Below the pieces are notes generated by a model. That model saw only the letters and a program-made list of their open reading frames with translations, searched no databases and was not told where the DNA came from. A stretch of 64,000 bases of DNA, from positions 13,456,501-13,520,500 of the forward strand of contig OY540822.1 of NCBI GenBank assembly GCA_961205875.1, in the 5' to 3' direction. Numbering within the stretch: position 1 is the first letter of the stretch; every line of letters begins with the position of its first letter. This document shows positions 6,816 to 62,174 of this stretch, piece after piece. This DNA comes from Sialis fuliginosa. Its lineage: Eukaryota; Arthropoda; Insecta; Megaloptera; Sialidae. Both the position numbers and the translations under genes were made by a program.

Positions 6816-7640
6816 TCCATCTAGCGGCAAAATGATGAAGTATCAAAAATCGTGACGTCATTAGCCGAGATAAGCTCCGAATCGTGAAATTTTAGGTGTT
6901 ATATAATCAAAACGGAGCTTGTCTTGGCTAAGTTTATTTGTCGTTGAAATAGTGGCGCCATCTAGCGGCAAAATGATGAACTACCAAAAATCGTGACGTC
7001 ATTAGCCGAGATAAGCTCCGAATCCAGAAATTTTAGGTGTTATATAATCAAAACGGAGCTTGTCTTGGCTAAGTTTATTTCTCATTGAAATAGTGGCGCC
7101 ATCTAGCGGCAAAATGATGAACTATCAAAAATCGTGACGTCATTAGCCGAGATAAGCTCCGAATCGTGAAATTTTAGGTGTTATATAATCAAAACGGAGC
7201 TTGTCTTGGCTAAGTTTATTTGTCGTTGAAATAGTGGCGCCATCTAGCGGCAAAATGATGAACTACCAAAAATCGTGACGTCATTAGCCGAGATAAGCTC
7301 CGAATCCAGAAATTTTAGGTGTTATATAATCAAAACGGAGCTTGTCTTGGCTAAGTTTATTTGTCTTTGAAATAGTGGCGCCATCTAGCGGCAAAATGAT
7401 GAACTACCAAAAATCGTGACGTCATTAGCCGAGATAAGCTCCGAATCGTGAAATTTTAGGTGTTATATAATCAAAACGGAGCTTGTCTTGGCTAAGTTTA
7501 TTTCTCATTGAAATAGTGGCGCCGTCTAGCGGCAAAATGATGAACTATCAAAAATCGTGACGTCATTAGCCGAGATAAGCTCCGAATCCTGAAATTTTAG
7601 GTGTTATATAATCAAAACGGAGCTTATCTCGGCTAAGCAC
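6816..7640. repeat. Tandem array, six copies of a 141-bp unit
   Basis: The landmark CTAGCGGCAAAATGATGA begins at 6821, 6962, 7103, 7244, 7385 and 7526, an exact 141-bp period. Each unit contains two complementary segments, AGCCGAGATAAGCTCCG and CGGAGCTTGTCTTGGCT, separated by about 36 bases. The last copy has CGGAGCTTATCTCGGCT, a perfect complement. Several variant positions largely alternate between neighbouring units (GAATCGTG against GAATCCAG), suggesting past amplification as a 282-bp dimer. No ORF is present. Confidence 0.92.
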
Positions 7641-13600: not shown

Positions 13601-16600
13601 GATAAATTTAGACAACCACAATACACTATTGAACGATGTTATCACACATTTTGGTCGTTTGGATATTTTGGTTAATAATGCTGGAAGGTCGCAGAGAGCC
13701 AAATGGGTTGATATCGATATAGAAGTCGATAAAGATGTATTTGAATTAAACGTATTTAGTGTTATTTCTTTAACACGGGTTGTTGTTAAATACTTTGAAG
13801 AATATCAAATTGAAGGACATGTAGCTGTTACGTCTAGTTTAGCCGGAATAATTCCAGCGCCCTTTTCAGCTGCTTATACCGGAGCAAAACATGCAATTCA
13901 TGTAAGTATTTAACCTTTTTTCCGGTATAATTTAGTTTTGTATGTTGCCAAAATGTCAGTTATACTGCCTTTTTTAGTCTCATTTCATTGCGTAATTTTT
14001 TTATAAATTGTAAAAAATAATTAAGAGTCCTGCATGGGTCCACAGGGGGAAGGAGGGGGGAGGGCAGATAGGGCTTTATTATTATTAAGGAGACCCGCGA
14101 TAAAACGTGGGAATAAAATAATTTTCCAGTCTCGCTCATTTAAAATTATTATTATTTTTTAGAAATTAATTTTAATTGAAGTTTGCTGTAAATATATATA
14201 TTTTTTTCAAAAATTGTTACATCAAATAATTTGATAGAAATAGAAAGTATTGTATAAAGTTATAAAACTGAACATCGATAAACTGGTGAATCGAACTTTC
14301 TCTTGAGAATTGAACTGTTATTTTTAATAGATTTCGTTAGAGGTCAATGAATTTTAATAATACGTGGATCTTAAAATAATTATTATTATGATGTTATTAC
14401 TTTAACATACGTACAAAAATCTTTAAAATGTTTTTTTTTACTATACTTTAAAACTTTGAATGATTTTATATTATTTAAATTATATTTTTTATTAACAGTT
14501 AACTAAAGATTTGAGTTTTATTTTTTATTTATTATTTTGTTGTAATTCCAGGGGTACTACAACAGTTTAAGAAATGAGATGTTTCATAAAAAATTAACAG
14601 TGACTGTATTATGCCCAGGACCAACCCATACGAATTTCCTTTCTGAAGCGTTCACTGGTAAAAAAGGAGAAGTAAGTTAATCTGGGTAAAAAAAATGAGT
14701 TTGGCTATATTTAAAAATATATTACTAAGCCGGCAATTTTTTAAAATGTTTTCGGTAGTAAATAGTGTTTTCTTTTCCCTTTTAAATAAACTTTTACGTT
14801 TTACTGTACGATTTTTTTCGCCGAGATATACAAATATAAAAATTAACAGAAGAATTTGTTGCCGAAAAAAAAATCTGTTTGGCCAAATTCTTTGGAACTT
14901 TTCGTCAATTTTAAGTGTTTTTTACAGATCAAAAGTATTTTTTTTGTTGCCCAATGTTATTATATAACTATCATAGGATATAGGTTTCTTTATTAATGCC
15001 AATCAAGAAATAAATATATACTAGTTCAACAACATTCGAAAAATAGTTTTCGGTATTAGATACTAAAAATTAAAGGTCATATTATGTAAAATATTTTGAC
15101 ATGCTTTTACTTTTTTTCACTCGTGAAACAAAGTAACCTAAAACAAGTTTTTGATAATAAATTGATACCATCTAATTGCAATGTAGAGAAATTGTTAGAA
15201 ATCACACATTTTGAAACCGATTGTAGGTCAGTTTCATAATATCATTAAAATATCGTCGATTAAAACTGCTAATTATATGTCCAATTTCAATAATTTGACA
15301 GAGGAGCAAAAGATTATATTCAAAAAAATATATTTTACGTATAAAAATAATAAATTTTAAGCAAAATAAAAAATGTTTATTTTTTTTCAGAAATTTGAAG
15401 GCAGTGTTTCTAAAACTGACCGACGTATGACAGCCGAAAGATGCGGCGAGTTGAGTGCCATAGCTATAGCTAATCAAATAGATGAGGCATGGATAACAAT
15501 ACATCCATACCTAGTAATGCTTTATTTCAATTCACTTGTACCGAACGTGTTTAGATTGTAAGTATTAATTCATACGTGTTAACAAAAAAACAAGATTTCG
15601 AACCTGATTGTTAAAGTAGCATCAATTTGTTACCAGTGTGCTCCGTAAAAATGTGCTCCGTAAAGTCAGCGGTGTATCATTCGGGTCTTATTGTTTTGAA
15701 TTATAAAATTATTAAATAATAAAATTAAAAGTGATTCTTAGCTATATGAGAATTGAAATGATGTTAAAATTAATCAGGATCCAGATATAAATTTTGTATG
15801 GCCTGGATCCGGCCTGCGGACCGTAGTTTAGGGACCGCTGTTTTATTTTTTTTTAATTAATAGAACATATGTACATTATAGATAAATATATATTTACAAC
15901 TTTTACCATTTTTTTAAATGCATCGTTTCAAAAATATCTCAAAAATTGACAAAAGTAAATATCTATTTCCGGTGATAAGATCGTTTTCAAAAATATAATA
16001 TTTTCTTCCCAGACGTATATTAATCCTAAATATAAAATTTTAACTTTCTATTTTTGTCGTCTTTGAAATTCCTCGTCTAGACAGACAGGCAGACAGATAG
16101 ACATCATGTCGAAAATAGGTTAAAATTAGAGTTGCGCCGAATATTCGGCATAGTTTTGGCATTAACAATGGTTTATTTTTTATAATTTGATTAAAACAGT
16201 GTATTAAAAATTACGTACTACAAAAAACAAATAAAAATAATTCTTTTATGTCCGGTATTATTAAGAAATTTGCAAGCTTGCAAGCGCTTTCAAATAGGGT
16301 ATTAATTCTGTGATAGTATCTATTGATTAGTTATGGAATATAGAGCAGTGATACTTCAACTTATAACACAGTTGGCGACTCTGATCGTACAAAATAATTT
16401 TTATAATATCACCACTGTTTTAATATCGTTGGTGTTTACGTACTACGCGTATGCGAAACCTGTCAAACACTTCATGAAGTTTCAAGTGAACTGTCAGATA
16501 GGTTTGATACCTCACTTAAATGTGCTTGCAAGCTTGAGTAATTAAAATGTCGAATATTGATTGTAATAAACGAATAAATTATTTTTACTGTATACACACT

Positions 16601-28800: not shown

Positions 28801-31689
28801 CTCCAAACAGTCCACGTAGTACGTACTTTGGAACCCTTATGGCATACAACCGTGTATGTCTTGACCGAATTATTAACGATTATTATAACAAAAATTTTTA
28901 TTTTCATTACAGTCAAATAATATTAATATATGATTTACTTCGTGTAATAAAAATCTAGTACGAAGTAAGTAAGTCAAATAGTAAAAGGTGGACACTTAAT
29001 AATTTCTGCCCTAGTCCAACACTGACTCGTTTTATTATATTTTATAGAAAAATAATTCTTTTTTCTTCCTCGTAATATTGAAGTGGTAGGGGAAAGTATT
29101 TGATCATTGGTGAAAGAAAAAAAAATACATTCTCCGATTTCCGAATTTCAACTTAAGATCAAAACATCATTTTTCGTTTCGTATCTGTCTGTCTGTCTGT
29201 CCTCTGAATCCTTATCACATGTATAATACATGAACCGATGAATCAATTTAAAAAAACTTACTTTGTTAACTGGGCTTAAATGATCCCATATATAAATCAT
29301 CAAAATCGATTGGGTTGATTTTATTAGCTTCCAGCTGACGCTATCTGCTAGGTGTCAGATTGTTATGAAATTGATCGATATTTTAAACCAGTGGTACTAA
29401 ATATATAATAATGTAATTGTTATGCATTTTATGAGATACACTTGGCAGCACTTACTTTAAATCGCTGATTGTACTTATCGCGCATGTGTCAAGGTTATGA
29501 TATGTACGATTTCATTTTCTACATCTGTGTGTGTCATTTAAATTAAATACTTAGCAGATAGCGTTAGCTGGAAGCTAACTTTACATTATTTGAAGTAAAT
29601 CTTCGCATCGTTAAGATTCACATAAAATTCTCAATTGTTTATGGAATAAATATTTCACTAACGATAATAAATTTTCAGGTTTTGGATGTATCATACAACA
29701 GAATTCGATCGTTGCAACACGCTTCATTTACGATGTATAGAAAATTGAAGTTCTTATATCTTGGGGACAACATGATCAATGATATAGAATCAGGGACTTT
29801 AGAGTCGTTGAGAAATCTTGAAGTATTAGATCTATCACTAAACAGTCTACAAAGTATACCCCCTACAGTTTTCAATATTCCTTCATTGAGGAAGTTGTAT
29901 CTATATAATAATTCAATAAGTGATATAAGTACTAATGTTGAAAAACCCATCAAGGCAAAACTGGAATTCTTAGATTTATCATTTCTAAAATTACGCGAGG
30001 TACCAGATTTGGGAGTTCTGCCTGACTTGAAGCACTTGAATTTGTCTGGAAATAAAATTACGAAGATAAGCATTAAGGATTTAATACCATTTTGTCAGTT
30101 GAAGGAGCTAGATTTAAATTTTATAGATACATTGATATTTGAAAGTTGTGAATGTATACAGCTTAGTGAATATGTCACTAATAATAATATAAAAGTTAAT
30201 AAAAATGGCCAAATCAAAATCTGTGACATTTCAGAACGAGGTACGATATATAGGAACATGTCATACATTATTTTTATATACAGGATGAATAAAAATTGCT
30301 TGATCTACGTAACTAATTATGATTAAATTCAATTATTAATGATTTTTCTTGACAACAATAGACAAAAATTAAATCATAACATCTTTGTTAAAAATAGTTG
30401 TTGGACGATCATTCGTAAAGTATTTTGAAGTGTAATAAAAACCGTATTTCTTAAATATATTTTTTTTAATTTTTGAAGTGACGTAACACGTAAACGTTTG
30501 GTTCTACGAAGATGAACCTAAACAAAAATTGTAGAAAATTCATTTTTTTTACAAGATTGGCAATATCGTAAAATCAAGTTATCGAAACAATTCGCAAAAA
30601 TTAATTTTTCAACGTTTTCCGGCAACGTATTAAAAAAAATTAAGCAGTAGAATCATTTTTTTTTTTATTCAACCTATATATAGACCTATAACTGTTAAAA
30701 ATATTTACAAGGTGTCCCACAAGGTATTGAAACTACTAATCAGCTGTCATTTTCAAATGGATGTAGTTATTGAGAAAATAAAAATTGCGTTGAAAAGAGT
30801 AGAGGCTGCAATTTTATTCGGGTTATGGTAGAAGCAAGTACGTACGCGTCAAAATGAATATTCTGACTTTTACTCTCGAAAAGTACTTCTTTTCGAGAGG
30901 AAAAGGGTATGGCAGTTCTTATCAGTGCCGGCCTTAGCAAATCTGGCGCCCTGGGCGAAATTTATTTTTCCACCCTCTTTCCCCATAAAAAAAATGTTAA
31001 AAAATCACCGAAAATGTCAATTAAAATTGATAAATTCATATCTCAGCTTGGCGCGATCCTACAGACTCAAACTTTTAAAAAAAATATAGCTTACATCATT
31101 AACTTTAAGACTATTAAATGCCCTAAGACCGCCGAGACCTCCTTCCCCTATTATGAACAAATTAAAATTGATAAATTAACAAATAAGTTGAATAATTCAT
31201 ATCTCAGCTAATACCTTATTAAAGGTTTTATGGGTTGCTGAATAAGTATATGTTAGCATCTATCAAATAATCGTTTGAAAATGACAGCTGATTAGTTTTA
31301 ATGTCTTCCCGTGGGACACCCTGTATATTCTAAATGCAAAATATATAAATACTTGTCTTAGGTATTTAATAAACTCAATTATCATTTAAATATTATATAC
31401 TGTGTATTTTTTAAAAAACTTTATATATATTTTAGATCTTAATACATGCCAGAATAAAACAATACCTGAAGATCTACAATTGATTCATGATGAATGTGCT
31501 AACAAAATACAGACAAGGGAAATCCAAAAAGCAAGTCAGCAAACATGGATATTTGTCGCGATTGGAATTGCAGTATTTTTTATAATTTTTATAGCAATAC
31601 TGTATGCCGTACATCGAAAAAATCTAACCACTACAAAGAAAAAACAAAAACAAATAAAGCCAAGTGAAGCTCTTCTTCTAACTCACTAA
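22801..31689 (+). CDS. Leucine-rich-repeat type I membrane protein (4 exons, 345 aa)
   Basis: Predicted secreted-pathway surface protein with an extracellular LRR domain; ligand unknown. Exons: 22801-22804 (ATGA only), 26054-26271, 29679-30240, 31436-31689; the frame is continuous across all joins. Residues 1-28 form a signal peptide (MRKFIALITAIFVFVGLFGS...). Cys44 and Cys57 form a short N-terminal cap. LRRs run from about 72 to 220, for example NLEVLDVSYNRI (72-83) and later NLEVLDLSLNSL, with a CEC-containing C-terminal cap near 230. A single transmembrane helix spans about 299-320, followed by a short Lys-rich cytoplasmic tail. The exon 2 donor is GTTATA, non-optimal but supported by the LRR frame. 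The four-base first coding exon explains why no ATG begins exon 2. Introns 1-3 are full of small transposons. LRR membrane protein is firm; orthology not determined. Confidence 0.88.
23635..24472. mobile_element. TIR element, 838 bp, in LRR intron 1
   Basis: The left end CTGGATGTTCCAAAAATCTT and the complement of the right end (CCGGGTGTCCCAGAAATCTT) are similar inverted repeats that continue through CCAGCATGGGG. TA flanks both sides. No transposase ORF remains. It belongs to the 'CAGGGTGTCCC' class of TIR elements also seen at 30708, 51986 and 52490. Confidence 0.7.
25511..26003 (+). repeat. Dispersed repeat copy A, interrupted by a hAT-like insertion
   Basis: TACTGGAAATCGATA, GACTGTAGCTC and other blocks appear in the same order at 57080-57830. 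Copy A is split at 25604/25856 by the element at 25605-25855. Confidence 0.65.
25605..25855. mobile_element. hAT-like MITE, 251 bp, with 8-bp target duplication
   Basis: The ends TAGGGGTTATTTT and AAAATAACCCCTA are inverted (one mismatch allowed). TCAGAACG flanks both sides (25597-25604 and 25856-25863). The 8-bp duplication and TAGGGG ends fit hAT elements. The interior also holds complementary CTGCAG-containing segments. It lies just before LRR exon 2. Confidence 0.8.
26505..26605 (+). repeat. Direct repeat, left copy (partner at 27176-27268)
   Basis: Contains TTATCCACACTAATCTGATA and GAAGTTACCCCAGTGGGAAG; about 90% like the partner by eye. The pair brackets a LINE relic. Confidence 0.8.
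26763..27162 (-). pseudogene. Non-LTR retrotransposon (LINE) reverse transcriptase, 3' remnant
   Basis: The minus strand reads FKALKILTLVDLFIYECSIY and then HNHLTRNKTNLN. In a second frame it continues LIRIYNAIPNDIKVLP and ends HYTLTEFKRHT before TGA at 26763-26765. These match the conserved tail of insect RTE/Jockey/CR1-like reverse transcriptases ('Hxyx-TRNK... YNxLP...YS.xEF'). A frameshift and stop near 26902 break the reading frame and the 5' portion is missing, so the copy is dead. It lies in LRR intron 2. Confidence 0.75.
27176..27268 (+). repeat. Direct repeat, right copy
   Basis: Partner of 26505-26605 (TTATCCACACTGATCTGATA, then GAAGTTACTCCAGTGGGAAG). Confidence 0.8.
27270..29060. 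other. Rest of LRR intron 2, no gene
   Basis: AT-rich intronic DNA. A repeat-like segment near 28400-28520 (CTTTGTCGTCCGTCAAAAG and following) resembles common insect tail repeats. Nothing else recognised. Confidence 0.5.
29065..29260 (+). repeat. CTGTCTGT dispersed repeat, copy in LRR intron
   Basis: The order TTCTCCGATTTC, CTGTCTGTCTGTCC, CTGAATCCTTATCACA and CATGAACCGATGAA is shared with 59735-59885. Confidence 0.7.
29324..29578. mobile_element. MITE, 255 bp, TIR TTAGCTTCCAGCTRACGCTA
   Basis: The left end TTAGCTTCCAGCTGACGCTA and the complement of the right end (TTAGCTTCCAGCTAACGCTA) differ at one base; similarity continues to TCTGCTAGGTGTCA. A second copy lies at 38732-38977. It ends 100 bases before LRR exon 3. 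No clear target duplication. Confidence 0.8.
30708..31323. mobile_element. TIR element, 616 bp, in LRR intron 3
   Basis: The left end CAAGGTGTCCCACAAGGTAT and the complement of the right end (CAGGGTGTCCCACGGGAAGA) begin inverted repeats of about 50 bp that include ATCAGCTGTCATTTTCAAA. TA flanks both ends. It carries a copy of the satellite-like unit described at 60617. No transposase. Confidence 0.78.
31028..31210 (+). repeat. Single dispersed copy of the 160-bp satellite unit
   Basis: Shares CTTGGCGCGATC, TATAGCTTACATCATTAACTTTAAGACTAT-like order, and AAATTAACAAATAAGTTGAA with the array at 60617-62165, diverged. Confidence 0.65.
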
Positions 31690-36257: not shown

Positions 36258-37921
36258 TTAAATACTAGATTCTGAGCATTGCGAGTATGATTTAAACAGA
36301 CTTGTAAAATTAACTATACAGAAAATAAGGGTAGCCCCTGATGCTGATCCTAGTTGTCCTATTGCACCACACCAAAATAATGATTTTCCTCCTACTTTTC
36401 GGAATAAAGAAGTAATCGATAGTTTTATGTAACTGATCAGTCCCCAAGCAAGGACCCATGATAATACCTAAAAAGAAATCAAAAATTTGAATTAAATATT
36501 CTTTTAATTTAATTTAAAAAGTTTTAGACAATTGCCCTGATAATAATGCAAGAAACTCAATTAGATTATATAACACACATTTTAAGATTAATTTGAAGTT
36601 GAGAGTATTATGTAGCTAAATATTGCTAAAATTAAAATACAAAATAAGATTTATTTACCATTATAATTTCTCCAATGGTATGACCAACCAGAGGTGGATT
36701 GGGACTTAATAATGCTGTTGATAATATATATAAACTACAAATAGCCCATAAGAATATCAAACTGAAAATAGCTCGTATAGAAGTATGAGGTAAAAATAAT
36801 GCTAGAAAACAAGCTATCGGACTTGCCATAGTTGACAAAGAAACTGTTAAATGATATGCAACATTTCCATATGGAAGACACGAATAACTCTGTATAGCTG
36901 GAAATATACCATTACCAAAAAAACAGACGATACAAATCCAAATATATAAATATTTATATTTCGGTCCCGTGTATTCTTCTATGCTTTCAGTTTCAGTGTT
37001 TTCTGGATTTTCGTACTTATAGACTTTCTTATTACTTTTTTGAGATTTGGATGTCTTTAAATGATTGAGTAAGAAAAACGATACTGTTGAAATACAAAGA
37101 ATGCCAAACATTACTAAGAAGAATATAAATGTAGAAAATCCAGGTGTAGGAGGTGAAGGCTCTAAATGTGTTGTTCCGTTAATAGTTACATTAACGCAAG
37201 TAGGGTTGCCTCCGACACCCTGAATGAGGGATGTTATACTTGGTAGGAAGCCACTCAAACCCTCTCCAATTAAATATGATATAAGATAAACCTCTTTATA
37301 ATTTCCCATATATGGCATGAATAAAACCGAACTGGTGCATCCTACCAGCGCTAGGAAAAATGCAAGAATAAATAACGCAGTACTGTGTTCTTCACCGCCA
37401 ATAAAACTCGTTTTCCGATTGAAAAATGACATCAAAATCATAGATAACGTTCCAAGTAACAAAATAACATAAACACAATATTCATCCTTCACATTTAAAT
37501 ATTTCTTTAATAAACTGTAGGTTATAGGTCCGATGTTGGCAACTTGTATAATAATAGTCAGGTACGAAGGTAGATTCCATTGTTCAGGAGCAGATTGTAC
37601 TAAAAGAGGTAATTGATTGAACATGGCATTTACTCCGAGCCATGATCCGATTCCAAATGAAATTGCTAGAATATCTACTAGCAATTTTCTCTCTTTAAAA
37701 TTCTCACGTATATTTGACAATGTGTTTGGCATGTTTACGAAACCTTCAGGCGGTAAAAGTGGATATAGTTCTTCGTTTGGAACTCTGTAAACAAAAAATA
37801 TAAGTTTATACAAAATTTTCACACAGATATTTTAAGATATCGTTTATTATTACATAATAAAATTATACCTTCTCTCCTCAAAGTCCCAAACACAGTTCTC
37901 AATAATTTCAACAAAATGCAT
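36258..37921 (-). CDS. Riboflavin transporter, SLC52 family (3 exons, 462 aa)
   Basis: Predicted plasma-membrane vitamin B2 uptake carrier. Minus-strand exons: 37921-37869 (17 codons plus 2 bases), 37784-36659, and 36467-36258 including the TAA. Splice phases match at both junctions. Family signatures include GIGSWLGVNAMFNQLPLLVQ followed by PEQWNLPSYLTIIIQVANIG at the N-terminal membrane pair, and WCGAIGQLGSASGATLIFC near the C-terminus. About ten or eleven membrane helices are visible, split by a charged cytoplasmic loop (KTSKSQKSNKKVYKYENPEN). The region with NVTINGT holds possible N-glycosylation sites. Length fits the family (about 445-470). The ATG is preceded by an acceptor-like CCTAG, so a 5' UTR intron is possible. 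No defects seen. Confidence 0.93.
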
Positions 37922-45989: not shown

Positions 45990-46863
45990 AATGTATCTAT
46001 ATATATCGTTCGAATTCTTTTTAAATATTTTCAAAATAAATATTACAATTGTGAATGTAATATTAATTATTTAATTGATTTAAGTACTCACTTTGACTCA
46101 CATACACTCCACTGAAATAATTACCTACTAAATGTAATGCTGATAAGATACATGTACATATATAATAATAATTCACATATGTAATCAGAGCTGGTCACAA
46201 TTAACACATACAGTCCGATGTTATTGTTAATCTTTTCTCTCTCTTTAACAATCTGTCAAGCATAGATTAAATGTACTAGAGAGAGTCCGACTGTACATGG
46301 TCATCTAATACAATATAATTTATATTATAATAATCATATGTATCAGATAAAAATCCTATAATAAAACAATGCAAGTGTGTTTAATATATTTTATCTATGA
46401 ATGCTGTGCAAAAAATTGTTGCAAATAACGCAAATACAATTAGTATTATTGAAATTGTTAAGTTGCATGTCTACTACATTCAGTTTTTGTGATACATTTA
46501 TAAAGATTTCCACTGAAATTGTGGTTGTTTCAATGTTACAAATAAGTTTGTTCCTCTGGTGAATAGGTGCAATTAAGTTTGTTCCAGCAACAATCAGAAA
46601 CAGGACTAAAATGTTTCCTTAGTGTTAACAGACAGTTCCTTTTTTGTTTCTTTGTTACAATTGCACCTTTAGGTTAAACAGGTTTCATAACTATTGTAAA
46701 AGGTTAATGAAATGCAACTTTTACATTAGATATACCGGGTGTTCTTTTTAAAAGTTACCACCTGAATATTTCTGAAACAAAATATTTTTGGGTAGTAATT
46801 CTGTTTTCTTCATTTTTATTTTTGTCGAGTATTTTTGTGTGTAAAAGCTTGGTTTTTAAAAAC

Positions 46864-46982
46864 AATGGATCTTGGCTTCTGGGTGTGTGTGTGACGAAAC
46901 GTTGGCTGATAACACGACCAAATCAACACGGCTTACATCCAAGATCCATATCAAGATTTCTGCGGAGCCTTCAAAACTTGTA
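46864..46982 (+). mobile_element. Second copy of the 17052 SINE/Penelope-like family
   Basis: GGATCTTGGCTTCTGGGTGT, then GACGAAACGTTGGCTGATAA, then ATCAACACGGCTTACA and CCATATCAAGAT, in an order related to 17052-17213 but rearranged. Confidence 0.6.
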
Positions 46983-48511
46983 ATTGTACATTATTTATTA
47001 TTTAGGATATAATTATTTCCAAGAAATAATAATATTACATAATCGGTATTTTTTTAAATAAATGTATTTTGTTCCTTGAAACTTTAGGGGTTTCTTTTAA
47101 ACAGTAATTTAAAAAATCACATATTACAAAAAAAAAAATATTTAAGTTAAGATATTAAAAATCTATTGTATTTCTGATAATTCTGATACATAGATAATTT
47201 TTGCATTGTTTTAAGAATGATTATGCTATTGTAATATTTACTGAAATCTACAAGAAAAGTGTTTAAAGAAAATTTTATGTCGATATTATCTTTGAACGTA
47301 TATAATACCATTATAATATTTATGTGTATGAGAGTTGAATTTTAATATACATCCTAGCTCCCAAAATAATTGTGTTTCTATATATGTTTATATGTGATAA
47401 ATACCTTTTTAAAGTTGATTTATATTTAAAAATAAAAATTAATTTAAACTGGGAACTTGTTATGATATAGAACTCGACATCAAAGTTGCCGTTAATAGAT
47501 TTCATTGTGTTTTTGCTACTGTTTCAAGTTGTCAATACTTCGATTGAAATTTAAAATATTGCGTGCATTTTCAAACTGTAATTGTAAGCATTCCAACGAG
47601 AAAAATTAAATTAAGCTTTATTTTAAATTGAACTCATAAAATAAATTGGTTTTCAAGTAATATTGAAAAATAAAATAAATAAATACAGGGTTCGTTTAAA
47701 TCAGTGGTGCGCAACATTTCTTCTTTAAATTTCCATATTTTAATTATTTATTTATTCTGACACACTTTATCCCCCCCCCCCCTTCCCCTACACCGGGCAA
47801 CATATATTTTGGCTTATGTTTATTTGTTTATAGATCGAAAAAATATATTTTTTACAAACCATATGGCTTCGTAAGTGGTAAAGGGTTTTTAACTAGTGTC
47901 CGACCGAACTTTTTTTTTTTTGTTATCTTCGACCGAAATCGAATTGTAAAATGCTGAAGAAGTTAGAAAAAATATATTTATTTTTAAATGTTTTTTTTTT
48001 GTGTAGCAGAAATTTATTATTTATAATTTTATATATTCTGATATAACTTAATACCATAATTTGTAATAATATAACAGTTATTTTTTAATTTAAATAGTAA
48101 TATTAGCAAATAAATAATCAATAATTTTCGTAGAAATTATGAACTACCTGCTTGTAAGTTATTTTTGCACTTGACTTTAGTAACATATAATAAGTAGTAA
48201 CTAGGAAAAACTAAATAATAATAATAATCTTCTAATTCTGTTTACAGGAAAAAAATTCAGATACAAATTTTAATGAGAAACTTTTGTTTTAAGAAATATT
48301 TGTCGGAAAAAAAGATTTATATAGTATACTTCGGCTTCGGCCTGATTAAAACCGATGATTTGTTCGAAGGTACAAACCGAATGTTCAATCGGGCATTAGT
48401 TAAATAAAACCAGGCAAATATAGGCGCATCATTGGTTTAAAATAACGTGTTTCTTTTAAAGTTGAAAAATATTCGAGTTCAGACATACATTACAGTTCCC
48501 AGGATTATACG

Positions 48512-48788
48512 TTACAATTTAGTCGGTTTCCCAGGTTTGAAAATACCAAGAGAGCAGACCAAACCGGCGATTGCTTCCCATATGGAAATAGTTGGATGTT
48601 GATCATCATCTAAATTAAAAATACCGTCAATCGCTGACTTGGAACTCGTCGAACGATCTTGATCTTTGGAATGGTGCTTAGAATTGTGTTTTACAATTGT
48701 GGCTGTGGCAGTTGGCAACACTTTGTTACCGAACTTTGAAATGTTAGGATCTCGTCTAGGTTGTGGTAGTAGTCTACGTTGGTTAGCC
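48512..48788 (-). CDS. Downstream coding exon, in frame after the TGA of the MATH-like gene
   Basis: The acceptor CAG ends at 48789. The exon reads, after completing an AGG codon with the upstream AG, ANQRRLLPQPRRDPNISKFG and continues without a stop to GIFKPGKPTKL and TAA at 48512-48514 (91 codons). Phase fits the upstream donor at 49779/49778 exactly. The sequence has ordinary protein composition (basic/His/Ser stretch, acidic NLDDDQ, hydrophobic tail) and its GC is higher than the flanks. It is either a translated C-terminal extension reached by UGA readthrough, an alternative isoform's last exon joined by an unseen splice, or 3' UTR with a chance ORF. I favour translation. Confidence 0.55.
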
Positions 48789-48828
48789 CTGAAAACGAAT
48801 GTATTGTATCCAAGTAAAATCTTCTACA

Positions 48829-49440
48829 GATCGAAGCGAAACATTTGCAGCGGCTGCGAATAATTCAGACAGGCGCGGGCGCGGCGCGACAGTTAATCGC
48901 TGAGAGTGCGGTTTTACAGCGAAATTTAAAACGCGTTCGACAGCGTTTTAATCGCTGCCGCAAGACCGGAAAAAGTAATTTAATTTGTAAGAAATCTTCT
49001 TATTCAGTGGTGGACTAAGAAAAGTTGAGATGGTGACTCAAATTTATTTTCTAATGATTAAAAAAATATGTTTATTTATTTATATTTTATTATAAAATAA
49101 TGACCTAAAAAAAGTTCCGTAGTAAGTAAAATAATTAATATTTTTAAAATTTTAAGCATAACATTACAACTACAATTTTTAAAACTTTTAATTTACAATT
49201 TTATAAAATACCAATTTGAATTAAGGTTTTCAAAAATTTAATAAAAATATTATGTAAAAAATTACATATATGAGTGTCAGATAGCATCGAATAATGCATG
49301 TATAAGAAAAATTAATGACTATTGATAAAATAAACGCGCTGCGTCAGTGTAAACAGACTTGCGAATTCCGCTGCCCATGCCGCAAGGAATGTGTGTTGTT
49401 TTTCTGCGTCGTAGCCGCTGCGAATATCTCGCTTCGGTTT
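48829..49440. mobile_element. Candidate MITE with GC-rich inverted ends, in the last intron of the MATH-like gene
   Basis: GAAGCGAAACATTTGCAGCG near 48832 resembles the complement of the sequence around 49411-49440 (GAAGCGAGATATTCGCAGCG). The ends are imperfect and no target duplication was found. Both ends and interior are CpG-rich against an AT-rich background. Confidence 0.4.
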
Positions 49441-49801
49441 GTGGAAGCTTTATGCATGCAAAGATTTTTCGTTTTAAGTGGAAATCAGTTACTTTATACA
49501 TTTTTCAAAAATAAATCGTAATTAAAATGTATTACAATTCGTAAATACATTGTTCTGAATAAATTGGTTCTAAATTTTGTTAACGTTTAAATCTGATCGA
49601 TTCGAATACATTGAAAAACTATAAGGTACGGGACACTAATACGCAAGGCTCGGGTCGCACTTGACAATTTTTTTCAACAAACGTCTTATAGCTCACAGAT
49701 GAAGATATTTTTTTACTAATATGAGTTCGCTAGGAAGTTTTAAGTATTATAAATATATTTAAATCAGTGTTTACTTACCTATTCGGCTTATTGGCCAATT
49801 C

Positions 49802-52800
49802 TCAGGCATATTCAGTATCAGTCGAAAGACTTCGTTCTCCGAGTGCATTGAATGGTCTTTCATCATAGAATTCATCCTTCCTCCAAATATCGTCCTCGTC
49901 TTCCCCGCCCTTTGTATGCCCTTCAGCCGTTTCTACTAAAGTATTGGAATAGTTGCCTCTGGAATGTGCATAAGCTAAACTTTTTTGATAACTAAATAAC
50001 TGGCGTTCGAGTCCATAGTTTTCGGCTTGTAATGCGCATATTTCCCTCCTACAAAGAAGAATTTATAATATTTATACAGGAAAGAATGATGATTTTTTAA
50101 CGTGTTTAACAAAGAAAGTATCAATTTACGAGGTGTGATTGAAATTTTAATGGGGGGTATAAAATAGTTACCGAGTAACAGTATTAATGGAGGTTACATA
50201 ATGAAAAGTACTCACTTCATTTGATGATTGTGCATACGAAAAATATCATCATATTTATGATAAATTGCTTGAAATAATAAATAACTTTCACCCCATTCAA
50301 CTTGAACTTTAAGTTGCGCTTTATCAGTTAAATACGGGCAGTCTGAAGTTTTTATCTATAAAAAATATTTTTTCATAAATTACATAAATATACTTAAAAT
50401 GTCCAATCGAAAAAATACTAATGGTCTAAGGTAAGTCGCATAAATAGACAAAAAAAGTAAAAAATATTATATTTTTTAATGTAAAGCTTAATTTGGGATT
50501 TTATTAGCTAATTTAACTAATTTTTTTGGTTCCCAAAATTAAAAAGAATCAAAATTCAATTTCGAGAAAACAGATTCACAGAGATACTTAAGGCTCTGGG
50601 GCCCCGAGGCAGCAAGTGATCGAGGGGCCCCTTATAAAAAAAAACATAAATAATCCTTACATATAATAATATAGACAATTTAATATATTTATGATTTCTG
50701 GTAAGGTTGAATTTAAATTTTCAATTATTCGAAACTTCGGAAGGGTTGCAATAAAGCCTCAATTGGGCCGTGGGTCGGAAATATCTTGGATCAGTTTCTA
50801 AACAATACCTTTTATCTATCAAAGTAATTCGTAAAAAAATCTATATCATTTTTATTCTTAATTAGGTATATCTACATATATTTAAAATGAGTTAATATTT
50901 CTGTAACTGGTGTCGACATAATAGTTTCTTAAACTCCAAAAAAAATATAGTAAAATATTTAGATGTTTTCATTATACACTCAATTATATTCCGCTAACAG
51001 CATAAAAAAGTTAAGTACCTCTTTAACAGCTAAATGAGTTTCCATAATAATTCCCTCGTCCGTATTTTCCTGGGCATAGTAGTGTGAAAATGGCCCCCCT
51101 GGCAAAGCCACCGGTTCAACATGTTTTGTTTTTGCGTGATAGCGAAGTAAATATGCTTGCCAACTTACGAAGCTGAAAAAAAGTTTTTTTTTGTGTGTTG
51201 TTTTATCTCTACATTGTTTGGCGTTGTTTTTATAAAATGTTTTGTTTAACACTTTCATTGTAAAATATGAAACAATAGTTTTGTCTTTCTATAAGTTGGT
51301 TTTTTTTCAAATGAACACTATTTTGGATGCATGCAAATATTTTTACTCTGATTAATTTGTAGCTTGATACAAATTTAATATTAGTTTTTTTATCATCAAG
51401 TTTGATTATAAATACAAAACATAGTTTTTTTTTACCTATATCTATGTAAAGGAAATAACTTTTACATATCAAATGTTAGGTCGCTATAACATTATCAAAG
51501 AAATATAATATCTTTGATCAAAGAAATATTACCTGCAGTGAATTTAATCAAATCTTATAATATATTTCTTCGTAATATTTCTATGAACATAGATGAGGAA
51601 ACTCTCTTATATTCAATCAAAGTTTTTTTTATCTTTGTCAAAGATCACTGACATATACTCGTATCTTTGAAAATGCAATAACGGTTTTAGCATACGATTG
51701 ATTTAAAGGAAATGCAAAAAAACTGCAAGTTCTTCCTGTATTCGATAAGATACAGATTGGCCATATATTATGAGCCGGATAAAAAATTTAACGTATTTTA
51801 CTTTATGGTAAATTTAGAAATGTTACTAATTGTAAGAAAAATAAACAATAGCTAACTAAAAATAACGTTTTTTTAAATAGTCTGTTAAAACTAATGACAA
51901 ATTTGAATCAAGCTTCAAAATTACAAGAATAAAGTGTATTTTTGAGTTATGTACTTAATATGAACAGAAGAGAAAAAATTCTGTACACAGGATGTTCAAA
52001 ATAACACGTTACAGAAAGAATGCTGTGTGCAGAAAATTTTTCAGATTGAAGGAGGCAAAATCACAATATATTTTCCACTGGATTTAAAATAACTTTTTCT
52101 GTTGTTAGATCCTTAAAACAAAAGTATACTTAGATCCTTATTAAAAAAAACACACAAATAAAAAAATATCATAATATTATCTTCTCCAAACTGAATACGT
52201 TTTATTTTGAACACCCGGTATAGTATGTTAATAAATCCTGTATCACGTTAAAAACCATACTATTGAATTATATATGACACAAACTTTATAACGGCCCTGA
52301 AATCTTTGCTAGTTTAGTTTTACTTATTAATATTTCATGTCATTTTGAAGAATCGTAGAGTAGTTACACACCTTTAAGTAATGTACATAAACACTGAATA
52401 AATAATTTTATTTTAAGAATAGTTATTGGTATTTAAGTCAATTGCAATTAAGGGTGGTAATTACTAAATTGTTAATAATTATTACTATACTAAGGGTTTC
52501 CCACGGGAAGATGTTGAAACTATCGATAATTCTGTTAAAAGTAACACAGAAAATTATGTTATTGCCCCAAAATGGAGTGACGTAACATATATGTTTAATT
52601 AAAAAATGAGTTATAACCTTTTTAGTGTGGTTCCACTCTCGGAAAGTGGTTTTACTTTCGAAAAGAAGCACTTTTCAAGATTATTCATTTTGACGCGAAC
52701 CATAGCCGTTACTCTTTTCAACACCTTCTCGTGAGACATCCTGTATATATAACAAACATCTGGATTTTATTGATTGAAATAAATCGAAGAGATCGAGTTT

Positions 52801-55800
52801 TAGAGAAAAATAATAATTACAAAATTTTTTGGGTTTAAAAAAACAATATTCGAAAGTAATATTTACGACATCATAACTTTGAAACGAGGTGAACTTTTTT
52901 GTTTAAATTATTTCAGAATATTACTTCCCGTAAAGAAAATAATTCGAAGTTTTTCTTCAGCCTGTAGTTCCAGAGTCAACGTTTATTTTATCCTATAGTA
53001 AAAAATAACTTACCGCAAATGATTTCTGGGAACATTATGAATATCCTTGTATACCATATGAAGCCGAACAGTTTCCGAATGCAAATCGCTTTTTACGGTC
53101 CATGCTTGTTTGTCTCTGTCGTACAACTGGGCACAAATCGGAGTTGGCATTACTACAGTCGCGCTGCTGTCGCCATCAACCGGAGTTGGGTGATTTGTCT
53201 GGGATATACCGCTAGTCACTGCTACTTCAGATATGGTATTCGCTACCACCATACGAAGTTCTACATTAACTATACCCTATATGAGAAAACATACCCTTTT
53301 TAAGTAAGACCGAAGCCATATTTCTGCTGGCCAGAAGCGAGGTGAGTTGAACAGGCGTATACATGACATTTTAAATTAAGTATATATGTATATTATGTCA
53401 GGGATATCTCGTTTACATGTGGTATATATATCAGTGGAAGTAGGGGAAGCAAGAAATTTCACAAAAAAATTTCGAATTTTTGATTACGTTAAAAGTATGT
53501 TTATTATATAGAAAATGACGTGAAAAGTAGTTTGTTTCAAACCGCAGGTCTGTATCTCAAACCGTTCTCAAGATATAGCCTCTCAAAGTTTTAGTTTTTT
53601 CAAATTTCTGGAGAAAAAAGGCCATAACTTTTGAACGCGTGGTCGGAATTGAATTTAGTTGACGGATTTGGAATCAGCGTGTCAAAATCTATATAATGAT
53701 ATGTATAATACTTTAAAACTCTAAAAAAAAAATTTCGCGAAAAATCGAAAAAATTCAAAGGGGTATACCTTAAAAAAATGTCGATTTTTCGCCAAAATTT
53801 TTTTGTCGGATTTTAAAGTATTATACATGTCATTATATAGATTTTGATACGCTGATTTCAAATCCGTCAACTAAAATCAATTCTGACCACTCATTCAAAA
53901 GTTATGGCCTTTTTTCTCCAAAAATTTGAAAAAACTAAAACTTTGAGAGGCTGTATCTCGAGAACGGTTTGAGATACAGACCTGCGGTTTGAAACAAACA
54001 ACTTTTCACGTCATTTTATATACAATAAATATACTTTTAACGAAATCAAAAATTCGAAATTTTTTAGTGAAATTTCCTTCAGTGAACTTCAGCTCGTCAT
54101 ACAAATATCGGCTAAAATACAAGAAAATAAGACGTAGAATCATTTAGTTACTATATAAATATAAAAGAATTTATTTAAAAAAGTAAAAGCTTGAACTTAA
54201 GGTGTTTCATAACTAGTTTTTTTGTTAATAGGAGGGGGAGGATTGACAAAATATGCTTCCCTTATTAAAAATTTCACGCCTCGCCACTGATATATATATA
54301 TATACATATATATAATATTCAAACGCAGTGAATATTAAACGTAAAAATTCTTAATTGAATATCATTTTCTACTGACGGTACTTTTTTTCGATAAAAAAAT
54401 ATTATAGATGGGTATTTTGCTATCATAATTAAATCTTGCTGTCAATTCTCTACAGACTATAGTTTATTTATAAAATCTACCGTGCACTGATGACCTAGTT
54501 TCATTTACATAGAAGCATATATGGGGTTGTTACAAGAAAATGAATATTTTTATATTTTTAGCGAGATGAAGTTCTATGAAAAACTTAATTCTTCGGAAAA
54601 GTAATATACACGGTGTAGAATTTCACTATTCATAAGAAAAATGCACTGAATTTCGTAGCTGGAACACAGGATTATATTTACCCTTCGTTTATTCCTGTTA
54701 CTAAATACGAAATTCAATTTATTTTTACTCGGAATGGAACATAGAGAAATCAATGTTATTTTAGATGCATAAAAATATATTTGTTCGTAATTACATTTTT
54801 TTCTTGTAAAGCTAAAATTTGTCTCTCGACGAAGATAAATTCTTACTAACTATTAATAAACTGGAGAAAATTAGATGTTTTGGATTGTTATATAACTTTC
54901 TTAATTTCATTTTGATATTTGATTTAACTTTTATAATTCCATGAGGTATTATATATAATTGTTAATTAACAAAAATAAATGTTTGAAGGACTTAAATTAG
55001 TAGCAAATGTCAAAACGCAATTAATAAAGTTGTAAAACAATCAAAAGCAATTGTTATTAATTTGTTTGAACTTCTTTTAATATTTAAGACGAAATTTAAA
55101 AACAAACTGGTTTTGAAGCACGCTTAAATTTACAAGAAAAAATCTATATTTACGAGTTTCTCGAAATGTGAAAAGCAGAGCAAATCTTTCCATGTGTCTG
55201 ATATAACATTGATCTCCCTATGTACCGTAGTTACATTAGATATGTTTGATATAAATACATATAGTAATAATAAAAATATGTAAGTATTTGTACAGTATGA
55301 AATGTCAAGAATTTATTAATGAAAAATTACACGCAAGCATTTTTCTTCTTTATTAACATCCTGACGATAATTCTGTGAATCGAAAGCTTGCGTGTAATTT
55401 TTCATTAATAAATTCTTGACGTGTTATCCGAACAAGGATTTTTATTGTTATTTTTAACGTTACTACTTTTATATTATTATTATTATTATCAATATATATA
55501 TATATACATATAAGAAAGAATTCAACCTCTCGAGATAGAAATGTGAAAATTTCGACGCATGCTACCAACATTTTTTGCGCATCCTTTTTATATATTACTA
55601 ATGTCGGAATCTTCATAGATCATTCGTATGGCAGTATTCGATTGTAAATATAATACTAAAATTCCAAAGCTCCAGTCGGTTTACGTATAAATATCTTTTT
55701 ATTTCAATAATTTATAAAAACCGTTTAACGTTGACTAATTCAATTATCGAATAGAATCAAACGCAATCGAAGCGAAAGTCGGATTAACTTACACTCACAC

Positions 55801-58252
55801 AATTTTCATTAAATAAATTGGTTTAACCATTTATTTATTTTGCACTATTTACTCTTTACCAGAGTTATGCAGACGTAAAAAAATGTGTAATGATGAGTGA
55901 AAAAAATATTTCTTATTTTCGATAACTTTGTTGTAAACTGTATATGTACCTATGAAAATATATATGTAGAATTTAAGAAAATGACCATTTTTAATGATTT
56001 TTATTTTTACTTCGAGGCTTTTAGGTCATTATATGTAAATAAAATAGTTATATGTGATATAACATTATTTATTATTATAGACGTTTCGTCATGTTTCAGA
56101 CTTCATCAGTATCTTTTAATAACAATGATATAGAAATATGTACAATGTACAAGTATCATATGTATAATAATAAATAATGTTATAATATCACATATAACTC
56201 GAAGTCAAAATGAAAATATATATAAAGTACCTACTTAAGTATAAGAACAATTACTCAAAAGAGTACTTAAGTAGATGCACATCTTTGCTTTGTATATATA
56301 TAATTAAAAAGCAATTGTAAAATGTAAAGCGAATTTTCAGATTAAATATTTATGTATGAAATTCATATCGTCGGTGGCTATGAAAAATATAAACAAAGCT
56401 TTTCTTTAGTATTTATTTTCCCCGTACCTTTATTTGAAATTTTGTATAGGGCATCAGATTTAAAATTGAAAGGATGTATTCTGTATATATGGAAAAACAA
56501 CAAAATTAAATATTCAGCTATTGTTTTTCCTTTTTTGTCATATGTTGTTTTTAGGATTTTATATACAAATTTCGCACATGTTTGAATAAATTACGATATG
56601 TTACAATTTACAACGTGAAGATTTTATTGTAAATACATTTTTTATTAAACAATTAACCCATTTTCAATTTTACATTCTAAGGGGGATCATCTCTTGAATA
56701 ATGGATTATTTTTTTAACTTCGTATTTAAAATTTGTAACGCTAATTTCACCCACTTTACGTTGTCCGATTGTCTTGAAATTTTGAATAATTATATATGTT
56801 AGATACACTTTTATCTAATATTTAATTTTAGAAAAAATAAAGTAACTATTCAATTTAAAAAAGTAGACGTATTTTTTAATTGATAATTATAAAAAAAATC
56901 ATGACGAGTATAACTTCGTATAACTTAAAACATCCATATTAAATAAAATTTTACAGTCTTATTTAAGCATCGATATTTCTCGTAAACGATTGATCCTATG
57001 GGAAATAAGAAATATTTTTTTTATTCGAGTATTTTGTGTTATATAAACATACAAAACAATATAAAATACTGGATTGAAAATCAACGGACTACTGGGCCCA
57101 TACATTCCTTGTCTAAATAATTATTGGTTGATACTGGAAATCGATAAACCTTATTAATATTATTATCAGATTAACTAGATATTAAATAAAAACTAATATT
57201 GGGCAAAGGACTGTAGCTCTCTCATGTCGTAGAATTTCCCAAGTTTTTGGATGAAGAATTTCAATTAGCTTTTGGGAGGTGAAACTAGATTAAAAATAAA
57301 AAGACACGTGTTCGGGTATTTATATATTTAAATGCTCATTATTAATTACGATATTTAATTCTAAATTACTTATTTATAAAATTAGATTTATTAATAAAAT
57401 CTATTTTGTAACAAATTAAGTATTAATAATTAATATCCGAAAACCGGAAAAAATTATAATTTATATGAAAGTATTAATACATACGTTATTAATAATTAAT
57501 TTGTTACAAAATAGATTTTATTAATTTCATAAATAAATCATTTAATTTACCTACATAATATATTTTAGTCCAGAAACTTGTGCGAAATATGTACAAGAAA
57601 ATAAAAACAATTGCAAATTAAAATAAAAAGTAAAATTCCTAAATCAAGATTCGAACCACAGTTCGCCGCGTTCCTAATAATCCATTAACCGCTTTTCAGA
57701 ATTAAATAAATGCTCGAACACGTGTCTTTTTATTTAACAGAAATCCTGCGACGTCCCTCTGTAAGAATAACTTCCCCGATTTACTGTTAAAGTTTAACAC
57801 GTCCGTCATGAATCACCCTGTATTTAATTGAAAAGTAGTTTTTAAATAATTTATTATCGCCTTTGTTATATTATTTGTAAACAGTAAGATATATTGAATA
57901 CTCTCTTGTAGAACTACTTTTCAGGCATGGTCTATTATGTTCCATCATGAATATAACAGTATCTATTCAGACTTGATCTATAATTGGTAGCAGGGATTGA
58001 AGGTAACAATAGATGAATAAATAAACATAACTAACTGACATTTCAAACTAACCTTGTATACGAGATCGTTGAATTTAGCTCGAGGATGCCATCCGTACCC
58101 CTTTCCATCGGAGTCTGAAATATCATCTAGTTGCCCACTGTCCATTAATGTTTTGCCAGACCCCAAGAGGACTTGGTAACGTACCCGACACTGATGGTCA
58201 AAGCCTGTTAGACGATTTAAATATACGGAGACACGACCTTCTGAATTTTCAC
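49802..58252 (-). CDS. MATH/TRAF-like segment plus helical C-terminal region, 5' partial (5 exons seen)
   Basis: Minus-strand exons: 58252-58053, 53276-53014, 51172-51019, 50355-50216, 50048-49802 (TGA at 49804-49802). All joins keep frame, giving 334 residues. Exon one begins in phase 1, so N-terminal exons are missing and probably lie beyond or unseen in 58,253-64,000. The first two exons read RVSVYLNRLTGFDHQCRVRY, DISDSDGKGYGWHPRAKFND and VNVELRMVVANTISEVAV. This strand-rich pattern resembles the second half of a MATH domain (the '...GWhpra.f.dL.ykg.l.velem' shape). Later exons give a Ser/Thr/Pro linker, a segment with FVSWQAYLLRYHAKTKH, and a helix-rich, Gln/Glu-containing stretch (MKREICALQAENYGLERQLF) likely to be coiled coil. 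The last part is acidic (GGEDEDDIW). Function and orthology unknown; the MATH call is inference. The donor at 49779/49778 lies 23 bases after the TGA. Confidence 0.8.
51986..52218. mobile_element. TIR element, about 233 bp, in MATH-like gene intron
   Basis: The left end CACAGGATGTTCAAAATAAC and the complement of the right end (CCGGGTGTTCAAAATAAAAC) are inverted repeats, with TA on each side. Confidence 0.65.
52490..52743. mobile_element. TIR element, about 254 bp, same class as 30708
   Basis: The left end GGGTTTCCCACGGGAAGATG and the complement of the right end (CAGGATGTCTCACGAGAAGG) are imperfect inverted repeats. Interior GACGCGAACCATAG resembles the interior of 30708-31323. Confidence 0.5.
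53432..54289. mobile_element. hAT-like element (858 bp) containing a 635-bp foldback palindrome
   Basis: The outer ends are CAGTGG and CCACTG with partial further complementarity; flanking ATATATAT on both sides is compatible with an 8-bp duplication but is low-complexity. Inside, 53446-53760 is nearly the reverse complement of 53768-54080 (for example ACCGCAGGTCTGTATCTCAA against its complement at 53970-53990), with GGTATACC at the centre. No ORF. It lies in the intron between the first two visible exons of the MATH-like gene. Confidence 0.8.
54290..55303. other. AT-rich intron sequence, nothing recognised
   Basis: Starts with a (TA)n run. No exon or repeat identified. Confidence 0.45.
55304..55420. 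repeat. Perfect 35-bp inverted repeat with hammerhead-like core in the loop
   Basis: Arms 55304-55338 and 55386-55420 are perfectly complementary (ends GTCAAGAATTTATTAATG and its complement). The 47-base loop ends CTGACGA, ATTCTGTGAAT, CGAAA (55362-55385), resembling the conserved core of a hammerhead ribozyme. It may be a retroelement terminal repeat. Confidence 0.75.
56046..56199. repeat. Imperfect 34-bp inverted repeat with minus-strand hammerhead-like core
   Basis: Arms 56046-56079 and 56163-56199 are complementary apart from a 3-base insertion. On the minus strand CTGATGA (56109-56103) is followed by AGTC, a loop, GAC and GAAACGT (to 56081). Confidence 0.7.
57080..57830 (+). repeat. Dispersed repeat copy B, interrupted by an inverted-repeat insertion
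   Basis: Counterpart of 25511-26003: TACTGGAAATCGATAAACC, GACTGTAGCTCTCTCAT and GTTAAAGTTTAACACG appear in the same order. The copy is split around 57291-57736. Confidence 0.6.
57291..57736. mobile_element. Candidate insertion with 17-bp perfect inverted ends
   Basis: AAAAAGACACGTGTTCG (57298-57314) and CGAACACGTGTCTTTTT (57715-57731) are exact complements. A second inverted pair (about 57385-57440 and 57490-57540) lies inside. A minus-strand GTGGTTCGAATCTT (57648-57661) is B-box-like, so a tRNA-derived SINE piece may be present. Confidence 0.5.
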
Positions 58253-60616: not shown

Positions 60617-62165
60617 GGCTATTATTAAGAAATTTATATTGAAAATTTAACAAATAAGTTAAATAGTTAATATGTCAACTTGGCGCGATCGAAGAAACTC
60701 CAGTTTTTTTTTAAAATGTAGCTTAAACCATTATCTTTAAGACTATCTAATGCCCGAAGACCTTCGTTTGCGCATTTGGCTATTATTAAGAAATTTATAT
60801 TGAAAATTTAACAAATAAGTTGAATAGTTAATATGTCAACTTGGCGCGATCGAAGAAACTCCAGTTTTTTTTTTAAATGTAGCTTAAACCATTATCTTTA
60901 AGTCTATCTAATGCCCGAAGACCTTCGTTTGCGCATTTGGCTAGTATTAAGAAATTTATATTGAAAATTTAACAAATAAGTTAAATAGTTAATATGTCAA
61001 CTTGGCGCGATCGAAGAAACTCCAGTTTTTTTTTAAAATGTAGCTTAAACCATTATCTTTAAGACTATCTAATGCCCGAAGACATCGTTTGCGCATTTGG
61101 CTATTATTAAGAAATTTATATTGAAAATTTAACAAATAAGTTAAATAGTTAATATGTCAACTTGGCGCGATCGAAGAAACTCCAGTTTTTTTTAAAATGT
61201 AGCTTAAACCATTATCTTTAAGACTATCTAATGCCCGAAGACCTTCGTTTGCGCATTTGGCTATTATTAAGAAATTTATATTGAAAATTTAACAAATAAG
61301 TTGAATAGTTAATATGTCAACTTGGCGCGATCGAAGAAACTCCAGTTTTTTTTAAAAATGTAGCTTAAACCATTATCTTTAAGACTATCTAATGCCCGAA
61401 GACCTTCGTTTGCGCATTTGGCTATTATTAAGAAATTTATATTGAAAATTTAACAAATAAGTTGAATAGTTAATATGTCAACTTGGCGCGATCGAAGAAA
61501 CTCCAGTTTTTTTTTAAATGTAGCTTAAACCATTATCTTTAAGTCTATTTAATGCCCGAAGACCTTCGTTTGCGCATTTGGCTATTATTAAGAAATTTAT
61601 ATTGAAAATTTAACAAATAAGTTAAATAGTTAATATGTCAACTTGGCGCGATCGAAGAAACTCCAGTTTTTTTTTAAAATGTAGCTTAAACCATTATCTT
61701 TAAGACTATCTAATGCCCGAAGACATCGTTTGCGCATTTGGCTATTATTAAGAAATTTATATTGAAAATTTAACAAATAAGTTAAATAGTTAATATGTCA
61801 ACTTGGCGCGATCGAAGAAACTCCAGTTTTTTTTTAAAATGTAGCTTAAACCATTATCTTTAAGTCTATTTAATGCCCGAAGACCTTCGTTTGCGCATTT
61901 GGCTATTATTAAGAAATTTATATTGAAAATTTAACAAATAAGTTAAATAGTTAATATGTCAACTTGGCGCGATCGAAGAAACTCCAGTTTTTTTTTAAAA
62001 TGTAGCTTAAACCATTATCTTTAAGACTATCTAAGGCCCGAAGACCTTCGTATGCTCCTTCGGCTATTATTAAGAAATTTAAATTGAAAATTTAACAAAA
62101 AAGTTGAATAGTTAATATGTCAGCTTGGGGCGATCGAGCAGACTCCAGTTTTTTTTAAAATATAA
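60617..62165 (+). repeat. Tandem array, about ten copies of a 160/161-bp unit
   Basis: GGCTATTATTAAGAAATTTA (or close variants) begins at 60617, 60778, 60939, 61099, 61259, 61420, 61580, 61740, 61901 and 62062. The units differ mainly in poly-T length and a few substitutions; the last is the most diverged. Each unit carries TTGGCGCGATCGAAG. No ORF. Confidence 0.93.
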
Positions 62166-62174
62166 CTTCTATCC

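Follow-up and report, generated by a model that had tools for sequence, protein, structure and literature searches.

A candidate stop-codon readthrough at a UGA before the last coding exon of a MATH-domain gene from Sialis fuliginosa

What is the fate of a message whose main reading frame ends at a UGA in the penultimate coding exon, if the codons that follow and the next exon stay open in the same frame? This question is raised by a MATH-domain gene of the insect Sialis fuliginosa on the minus strand of the window analysed here, a stretch of 64,000 nucleotides of contig OY540822.1 (assembly GCA_961205875.1, positions 13,456,501 to 13,520,500 of the forward strand). An original prediction from the same letters held that the gene makes a short and a long protein by readthrough of the UGA. 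Its sequence logic holds, and readthrough at the end of the eighth coding exon is in our assessment the likeliest single reading, towards which the balance leans; however, the prediction overlooked the skipping of a symmetric exon as another route to a long protein, and a nonsense change would also be possible. We regard the gene as a reasonable candidate, sound but unproven and short of a demonstration, for a phenomenon already described for hundreds of genes in insects.

Exons were placed manually, using open frames and splice consensus, and the nine predicted coding exons (E1-E9), all on the minus strand, are joined by junctions that are phase-consistent throughout. The five exons of the original prediction correspond to E4-E8, which together with E9 lie within the window; three more were found past its edge, namely E1 (81685-81395), E2 (68782-68631) and E3 (67346-67138) in window coordinates extended beyond 64000, and the first intron of the gene exceeds 12 kb. 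Within the window the series comprises E4 (58053..58252, ENSEGRVSVYLNR...DLVYK), E5 (53014..53276, GIVNVELRMVVAN...), E6 (51019..51172), E7 (50216..50355, with the 3' end ATG AA in phase 2) and, after a short intron of 167 nt, E8 (49779..50048), which is 270 nt long and lies between two phase-2 introns. On the minus strand E8 contains, exactly as predicted, the in-frame TGA at 49802..49804, read directly in the context GCC TGA GAA. The seven codons after it (ELANKPN) are open, the bases AG complete the exon at 49779, and the donor GTAAGT follows; the pair 49779/49778 originally given for it marks the junction, the GT itself being 49778/49777. E9 (48512..48788) starts at 48788 after ...TTTTCAG and continues the frame of E1-E8 for 91 codons up to a TAA at 48514-48512. 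With the codon at the junction (AGG) the extension comes to 7 + 1 + 91 = 99 codons, in agreement with the phase and length originally assigned to it, and the last base of the stop indeed lies 23 nt from the junction. The predicted splicing would join E1-E9 into 551 codons, TGA, 99 codons and TAA.

The 551-amino-acid protein probably contains two MATH domains. Pfam MATH_2 scores 39.5 bits over the whole protein against a cut-off of 32, with its best stretch at 187-244, and Pfam MATH is found at 45-121 with 21 bits, just below its cut-off of 21.2. The MATH signal emerged after the addition of E1-E3, a partial core lacking these exons having no Pfam match. Nothing was found in the PDB for the partial core, and the whole core retrieved three chance-like rows with E values of 2 or more. 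A query with E5-E8 against the species' own genome recovered these four exons and one further match on another contig (C3, E 0.003), which has six TAA inside and was taken for chance from its DNA, viewed unaligned.

We take E9 to be coding, that is, to hold a second, coding-like reading frame in phase with the first. Phase was scored with a position-specific base model whose training set comprised E1-E8, as far as the TGA, and three neighbouring coding exons. E9 reaches 3.88 in the continued frame, whereas the two remaining sense frames give -4.64 and -7.33; when the training is limited to the other genes, its score in the continued frame is 3.92. An antisense gene over E9 was rejected, as the antisense frames score below zero (-6.16, -0.19 and -4.03) and contain 5, 2 and 8 stops, respectively. 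Among 20,000 dinucleotide shuffles of E9 the score was reached by 36 and 206 were free of stops, with 0 combining both; in as many mononucleotide shuffles the combination arose in 1. Overlapping window-frames from hand-chosen introns reached the score in 1 of 2,202 cases and were stop-free in none. Outside E9 the full model gives -2.62 for the 90 nt that precede it and -0.24 for the 90 nt that follow its TAA. E9 is also single-copy in the 392-Mb assembly, its sole match being itself both as DNA and as protein, and the extension as a whole has no paralogue there, again matching only itself. GC content was given up as an argument, since the 200 nt preceding E9 already have a high value (0.45), and a repeat sits there. 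This dispersed repeat (48808..49453) lies in the E8-E9 intron, outside the coding feature, and resembles a miniature inverted-repeat transposable element; its inverted arms are 43 nt long and 81% complementary, and it is represented by at least 74 genomic pieces including itself (40 of 193 candidates were scored), the best-scoring other copy being 80% identical. A derivation of E9 from the repeat was rejected: six copies were compared, and even the one extending farthest has its edge 20 nt short of E9.

The tail has 99 residues, of which 16 are K or R, 9 are D or E and 4 are H, and it has no match in Pfam or in the PDB. It ends in -TKL, a tripeptide resembling a weak peroxisomal signal, to which we give little weight as a signal; in the available tables of PMC6770196 a native protein with this ending, HPGDS, is predicted not to be targeted and has a measurable affinity. 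No in-frame ATG occurs from the TGA to the TAA, and there is no methionine among the 99 residues of the extension. Therefore, initiation at an AUG inside the tail is excluded as the source of E9 translation (only AUG starts were considered). An alternative GT donor in E8 upstream of the stop was likewise rejected, given that the five other GTs before the TGA are not donor-like and all score -5.0 or less; nor was a GC[AG]AG donor-like site found in this part of E8. The donor used in our model (AG|GTAAGT) scores 6.7, the top of the gene's eight donors (range -0.0 to 6.7), under weights taken from general animal donor frequencies.

Under the readthrough reading, the main frame of the MATH-domain gene would end at the UGA, which a near-cognate tRNA would decode in a fraction of ribosome passages. 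The ribosome would then cross the E8-E9 junction in frame and generate a long product with one residue at the UGA and 99 more, forming a basic tail that ends in SIWEAIAGLVCSLGIFKPGKPTKL. Both the splicing and the readthrough are inferred here, as are the frequency of the latter and whatever role the tail may have. The original prediction added that nonsense-mediated decay would not be expected with the stop so close to the junction. The distance of 23 nt stands, but the argument invokes a mammalian distance rule that is not known to apply to insects. The exon-junction complex sits about 20-24 nt from a junction, which is approximately where the UGA ends. On this basis it may be proposed that readthrough is coupled with splicing or with the initial round of translation and switches the MATH-domain protein to the -TKL tail, a link that we nevertheless consider very improbable.

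Known insect cases provide a profile against which the gene can be weighed. Hundreds of readthrough candidates have been described in Anopheles and Drosophila (Jungreis 2016, PMC5100048), and in the bumblebee 851 candidates are listed, at least 306 of which are inferred to be functional (PMC7826183, available text). As far as the available text of PMC5100048 goes, the candidates of Anopheles and Drosophila tend strongly towards TGA and towards C at +4; the 100 nt that follow are more structured, the genes are longer and CAGCAGCA is enriched. The genome analysed here is likewise that of an insect, with 42 matches to the odorant-receptor family 7tm_6, which is specific to insects. TGA is the commonest stop among the conserved candidates of Drosophila and Anopheles, which speaks for readthrough here. 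Several observations, in contrast, weigh against readthrough. The +4 base is G (TGA-G) where C is favoured, the 8-mer CAGCAGCA was found neither within the final 250 nt nor in the tail, and the UGA CUA G motif described for high readthrough (PMC12233894, available part) is absent at the stop of the MATH gene. Folding of the RNA beyond the stop is ordinary for a 70-nt stretch (z -0.9; 35 of 200 shuffles equally stable), and modest structure is seen for 103 nt (z -1.7; 14 of 200 shuffles) and for 121 nt starting at the TGA (z -2.1; 4 of 200); a hairpin about 76 nt past the stop (z -2.6; 3 of 200) was chosen after the fold had been seen. Thus, neither a leaky TGA-C context nor strong 3' RNA structure, features typical though not obligatory of readthrough genes, was found. 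In the ribosome-profiling study of Dunn 2013 (PMC3840789, available part) UGA accounts for only 25% of the readthrough events. As for E9, training on this gene alone lowers its score from 3.88 to 1.81, with a negative first third (-0.86), and the method is imperfect: it ranks the known frame top in 7 of the 8 upstream exons, themselves part of the training set, and fails in E1. The stretch of seven codons that precedes the junction is too short for scoring (0.05 to 0.35). Searches with the core and the extension by tblastn found no relative in collections of genome contigs and viral contigs, which are not of insects (pattern-match stretches in the two collections numbered 20 and 2 for the core, and 55 and 9 for the extension). 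The evidence is the sequence of one genome, in which a recent nonsense change would give the same picture, and the symmetry of E8 (phase 2-2) leaves a splicing route to E9. Literature on readthrough, the MATH domain or insects had no title on this gene among the 20 matches listed of 211, and a search joining readthrough with 'meprin and TRAF' matched plant-virus work. The weights that we give to readthrough, a nonsense change, skipping of E8, chance, selenocysteine and editing combine general base rates with the sequence tests and derive from no fitted model.

The alternative that survives best is a nonsense allele or a recent nonsense substitution, in which case the ancestral protein ran into E9 and this exon has not yet decayed; a base error in the assembly would be a minor version of the same explanation. 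We consider it unlikely, though it deserves to be taken seriously. It accounts for an intact E9 and a frame that is continuous save for one codon, it predicts the seven open codons up to the junction, and it sits well with TGA-G, which is not the favoured leaky context. On the same ground the study of Anopheles and Drosophila (PMC5100048, available text) leaves out candidates whose stop occurs in close relatives only, since these may stem from recent nonsense substitutions, and it treats splice variants as a further rival. Yet, judging from general orders of magnitude, a genome should hold fewer nonsense changes of this kind than readthrough genes, and a single-base error would be unlikely in a chromosome-scale assembly.

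Next comes the possibility that E8 is a stop-bearing cassette, whose inclusion yields the protein of 551 amino acids and whose skipping yields one of 561, with no recoding at all; this too we hold to be unlikely. As E8 is symmetric, with 270 nt between two phase-2 introns, its skipping therefore also produces an in-frame long protein without the TGA, the E7-E9 message being one open frame of 561 amino acids. The ribosome-profiling study likewise excluded any extension for which an isoform lacking the stop could account (PMC3840789, available part). Nonetheless, the splice sites of E8 look strong: its donor is the gene's best, 12 of the 16 bases before its acceptor are pyrimidines, which ties the gene maximum, and the upstream intron is short. 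Moreover, skipping does not predict that the codons from the TGA to the donor are open and phase-matched, a state that would arise by chance about once in five.

That E9 is an ordinary 3' untranslated region, open by chance, has only a slim probability. GC content is not diagnostic, as the value before E9 indicates, and the reduced score under the gene-only model and the wrong frame ranked first in E1 leave it some room; against these stand the shuffled sequences, none of which combined score and openness when dinucleotides were kept, and the fall of the phase score outside E9.

Insertion of selenocysteine at the UGA is scarcely credible for this gene, even though the species probably makes selenoproteins and decodes UGA as selenocysteine elsewhere. 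A search for the selenocysteine tRNA (tRNA-Sec) gave seven matches, one over the cut-off (74.2 bits versus 47), which ARAGORN identifies as tRNA-Sec with anticodon TCA; the same search also gives matches in the 14 prokaryote controls, 5 of which exceed the cut-off. There are two selD-like loci, one reading LKGRGCKVPQ with arginine, like insect SPS1, and the other LRG*GCKVPQ with TGA exactly at the position of the arginine, like SPS2; the proteins SPS1 and SPS2 have been described (PMC2500217, available part). The SPS2-like match is partial, with 89.6 bits below the family cut-off of 125. A tRNA-Sec and an SPS2-like locus, the components of the machinery that were searched, are thus both at hand, and the SPS2-like locus is itself a likely selenoprotein gene (TGA at L022 724-726, near G000:C14:9472363-9472827). 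At the MATH gene, on the other hand, Rfam finds no selenocysteine insertion sequence (SECIS) in the window at the gathering cut-off and none among 4 matches at E up to 10 over 46000-49830; a strict scan, run without a positive control, was empty, and a relaxed scan of the 2,012 nt past the TAA turned up a single poor candidate, which lies 1.56 kb off and starts TTGA. By eye there is no redox motif at the UGA. The sensitivity of these searches is limited because the stretch after the SPS2-like gene yielded no convincing SECIS, with one multi-branched candidate in the relaxed scan and none in Rfam. The relaxed scan did recover a SECIS-like element with AUGA, AAA and UGA core on contig C2 (L018 1501-1563; G000:C2:28407203-28407265; 26.9 bits). 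This element is also the single match of the genome-wide Rfam SECIS search (150 of 5,823 candidates scored), its score lying below the cut-off of 35; among the 14 prokaryote controls the search gives matches in 4, all of them below the cut-off too.

Least credible of all is adenosine-to-inosine editing of UGA to UGG, in favour of which nothing was found; an editing duplex over the TGA was rejected: of the 15 inverted-repeat pairs of at least 14 nt in 48400-50400, 0 cover it.

Elsewhere in the window, a tandem array of 9.7 copies of a 161-bp unit (96% matches) occupies 60617-62168 in the E3-E4 intron, and another, of 5.8 copies of a 141-bp unit (96% matches), lies at 6817-7637. Other coding features include an exon of an SLC52 riboflavin transporter at 36635-37831 on the minus strand (E 3.5e-123), a leucine-rich-repeat exon at 29568-30323 and a short-chain dehydrogenase exon at 13545-13910, the last two on the plus strand.

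How, then, does the gene compare with known systems? SPOP, TRAF, USP7 and TRIM37 are proteins with MATH/TRAF-C domains; the gene described here resembles them in its Pfam MATH_2 match over the cut-off and near-cut-off MATH match, whereas it has no RING, BTB or protease domain among its Pfam matches and no credible relative in the PDB. With selenoproteins it shares a UGA, in an insect whose selenocysteine pathway apparently works, and it differs from them in that no credible SECIS and no redox context were found. With insect readthrough genes it shares an in-frame UGA, an open and coding-like second reading frame and great gene length, with numerous exons and long introns. Junctions within the extension may have a parallel, as a table legend in the available part of PMC3840789 has a sign for splice junctions inside extensions, although no row there bears it. 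It is set apart from them by G at +4 and the lack of strong structure right after the stop, and by being known from its sequence alone. If the readthrough reading holds, insects would have one more such gene, with a stop just before a junction and a tail of 99 codons, and its host would be an insect in which UGA is probably decoded as selenocysteine too; if skipping of E8 or a nonsense change holds instead, the locus would serve as a warning against calling readthrough from single genomes. Readthrough of kelch and headcase in Drosophila rests on experiments, and in this they differ from the MATH-domain gene, which is predicted from one genome. Both Drosophila genes (kel and heca) are named in the readthrough literature (PMC13170385, available part), and the outcome proposed here would be of the same kind, namely two proteins from one message by way of a suppressible stop.

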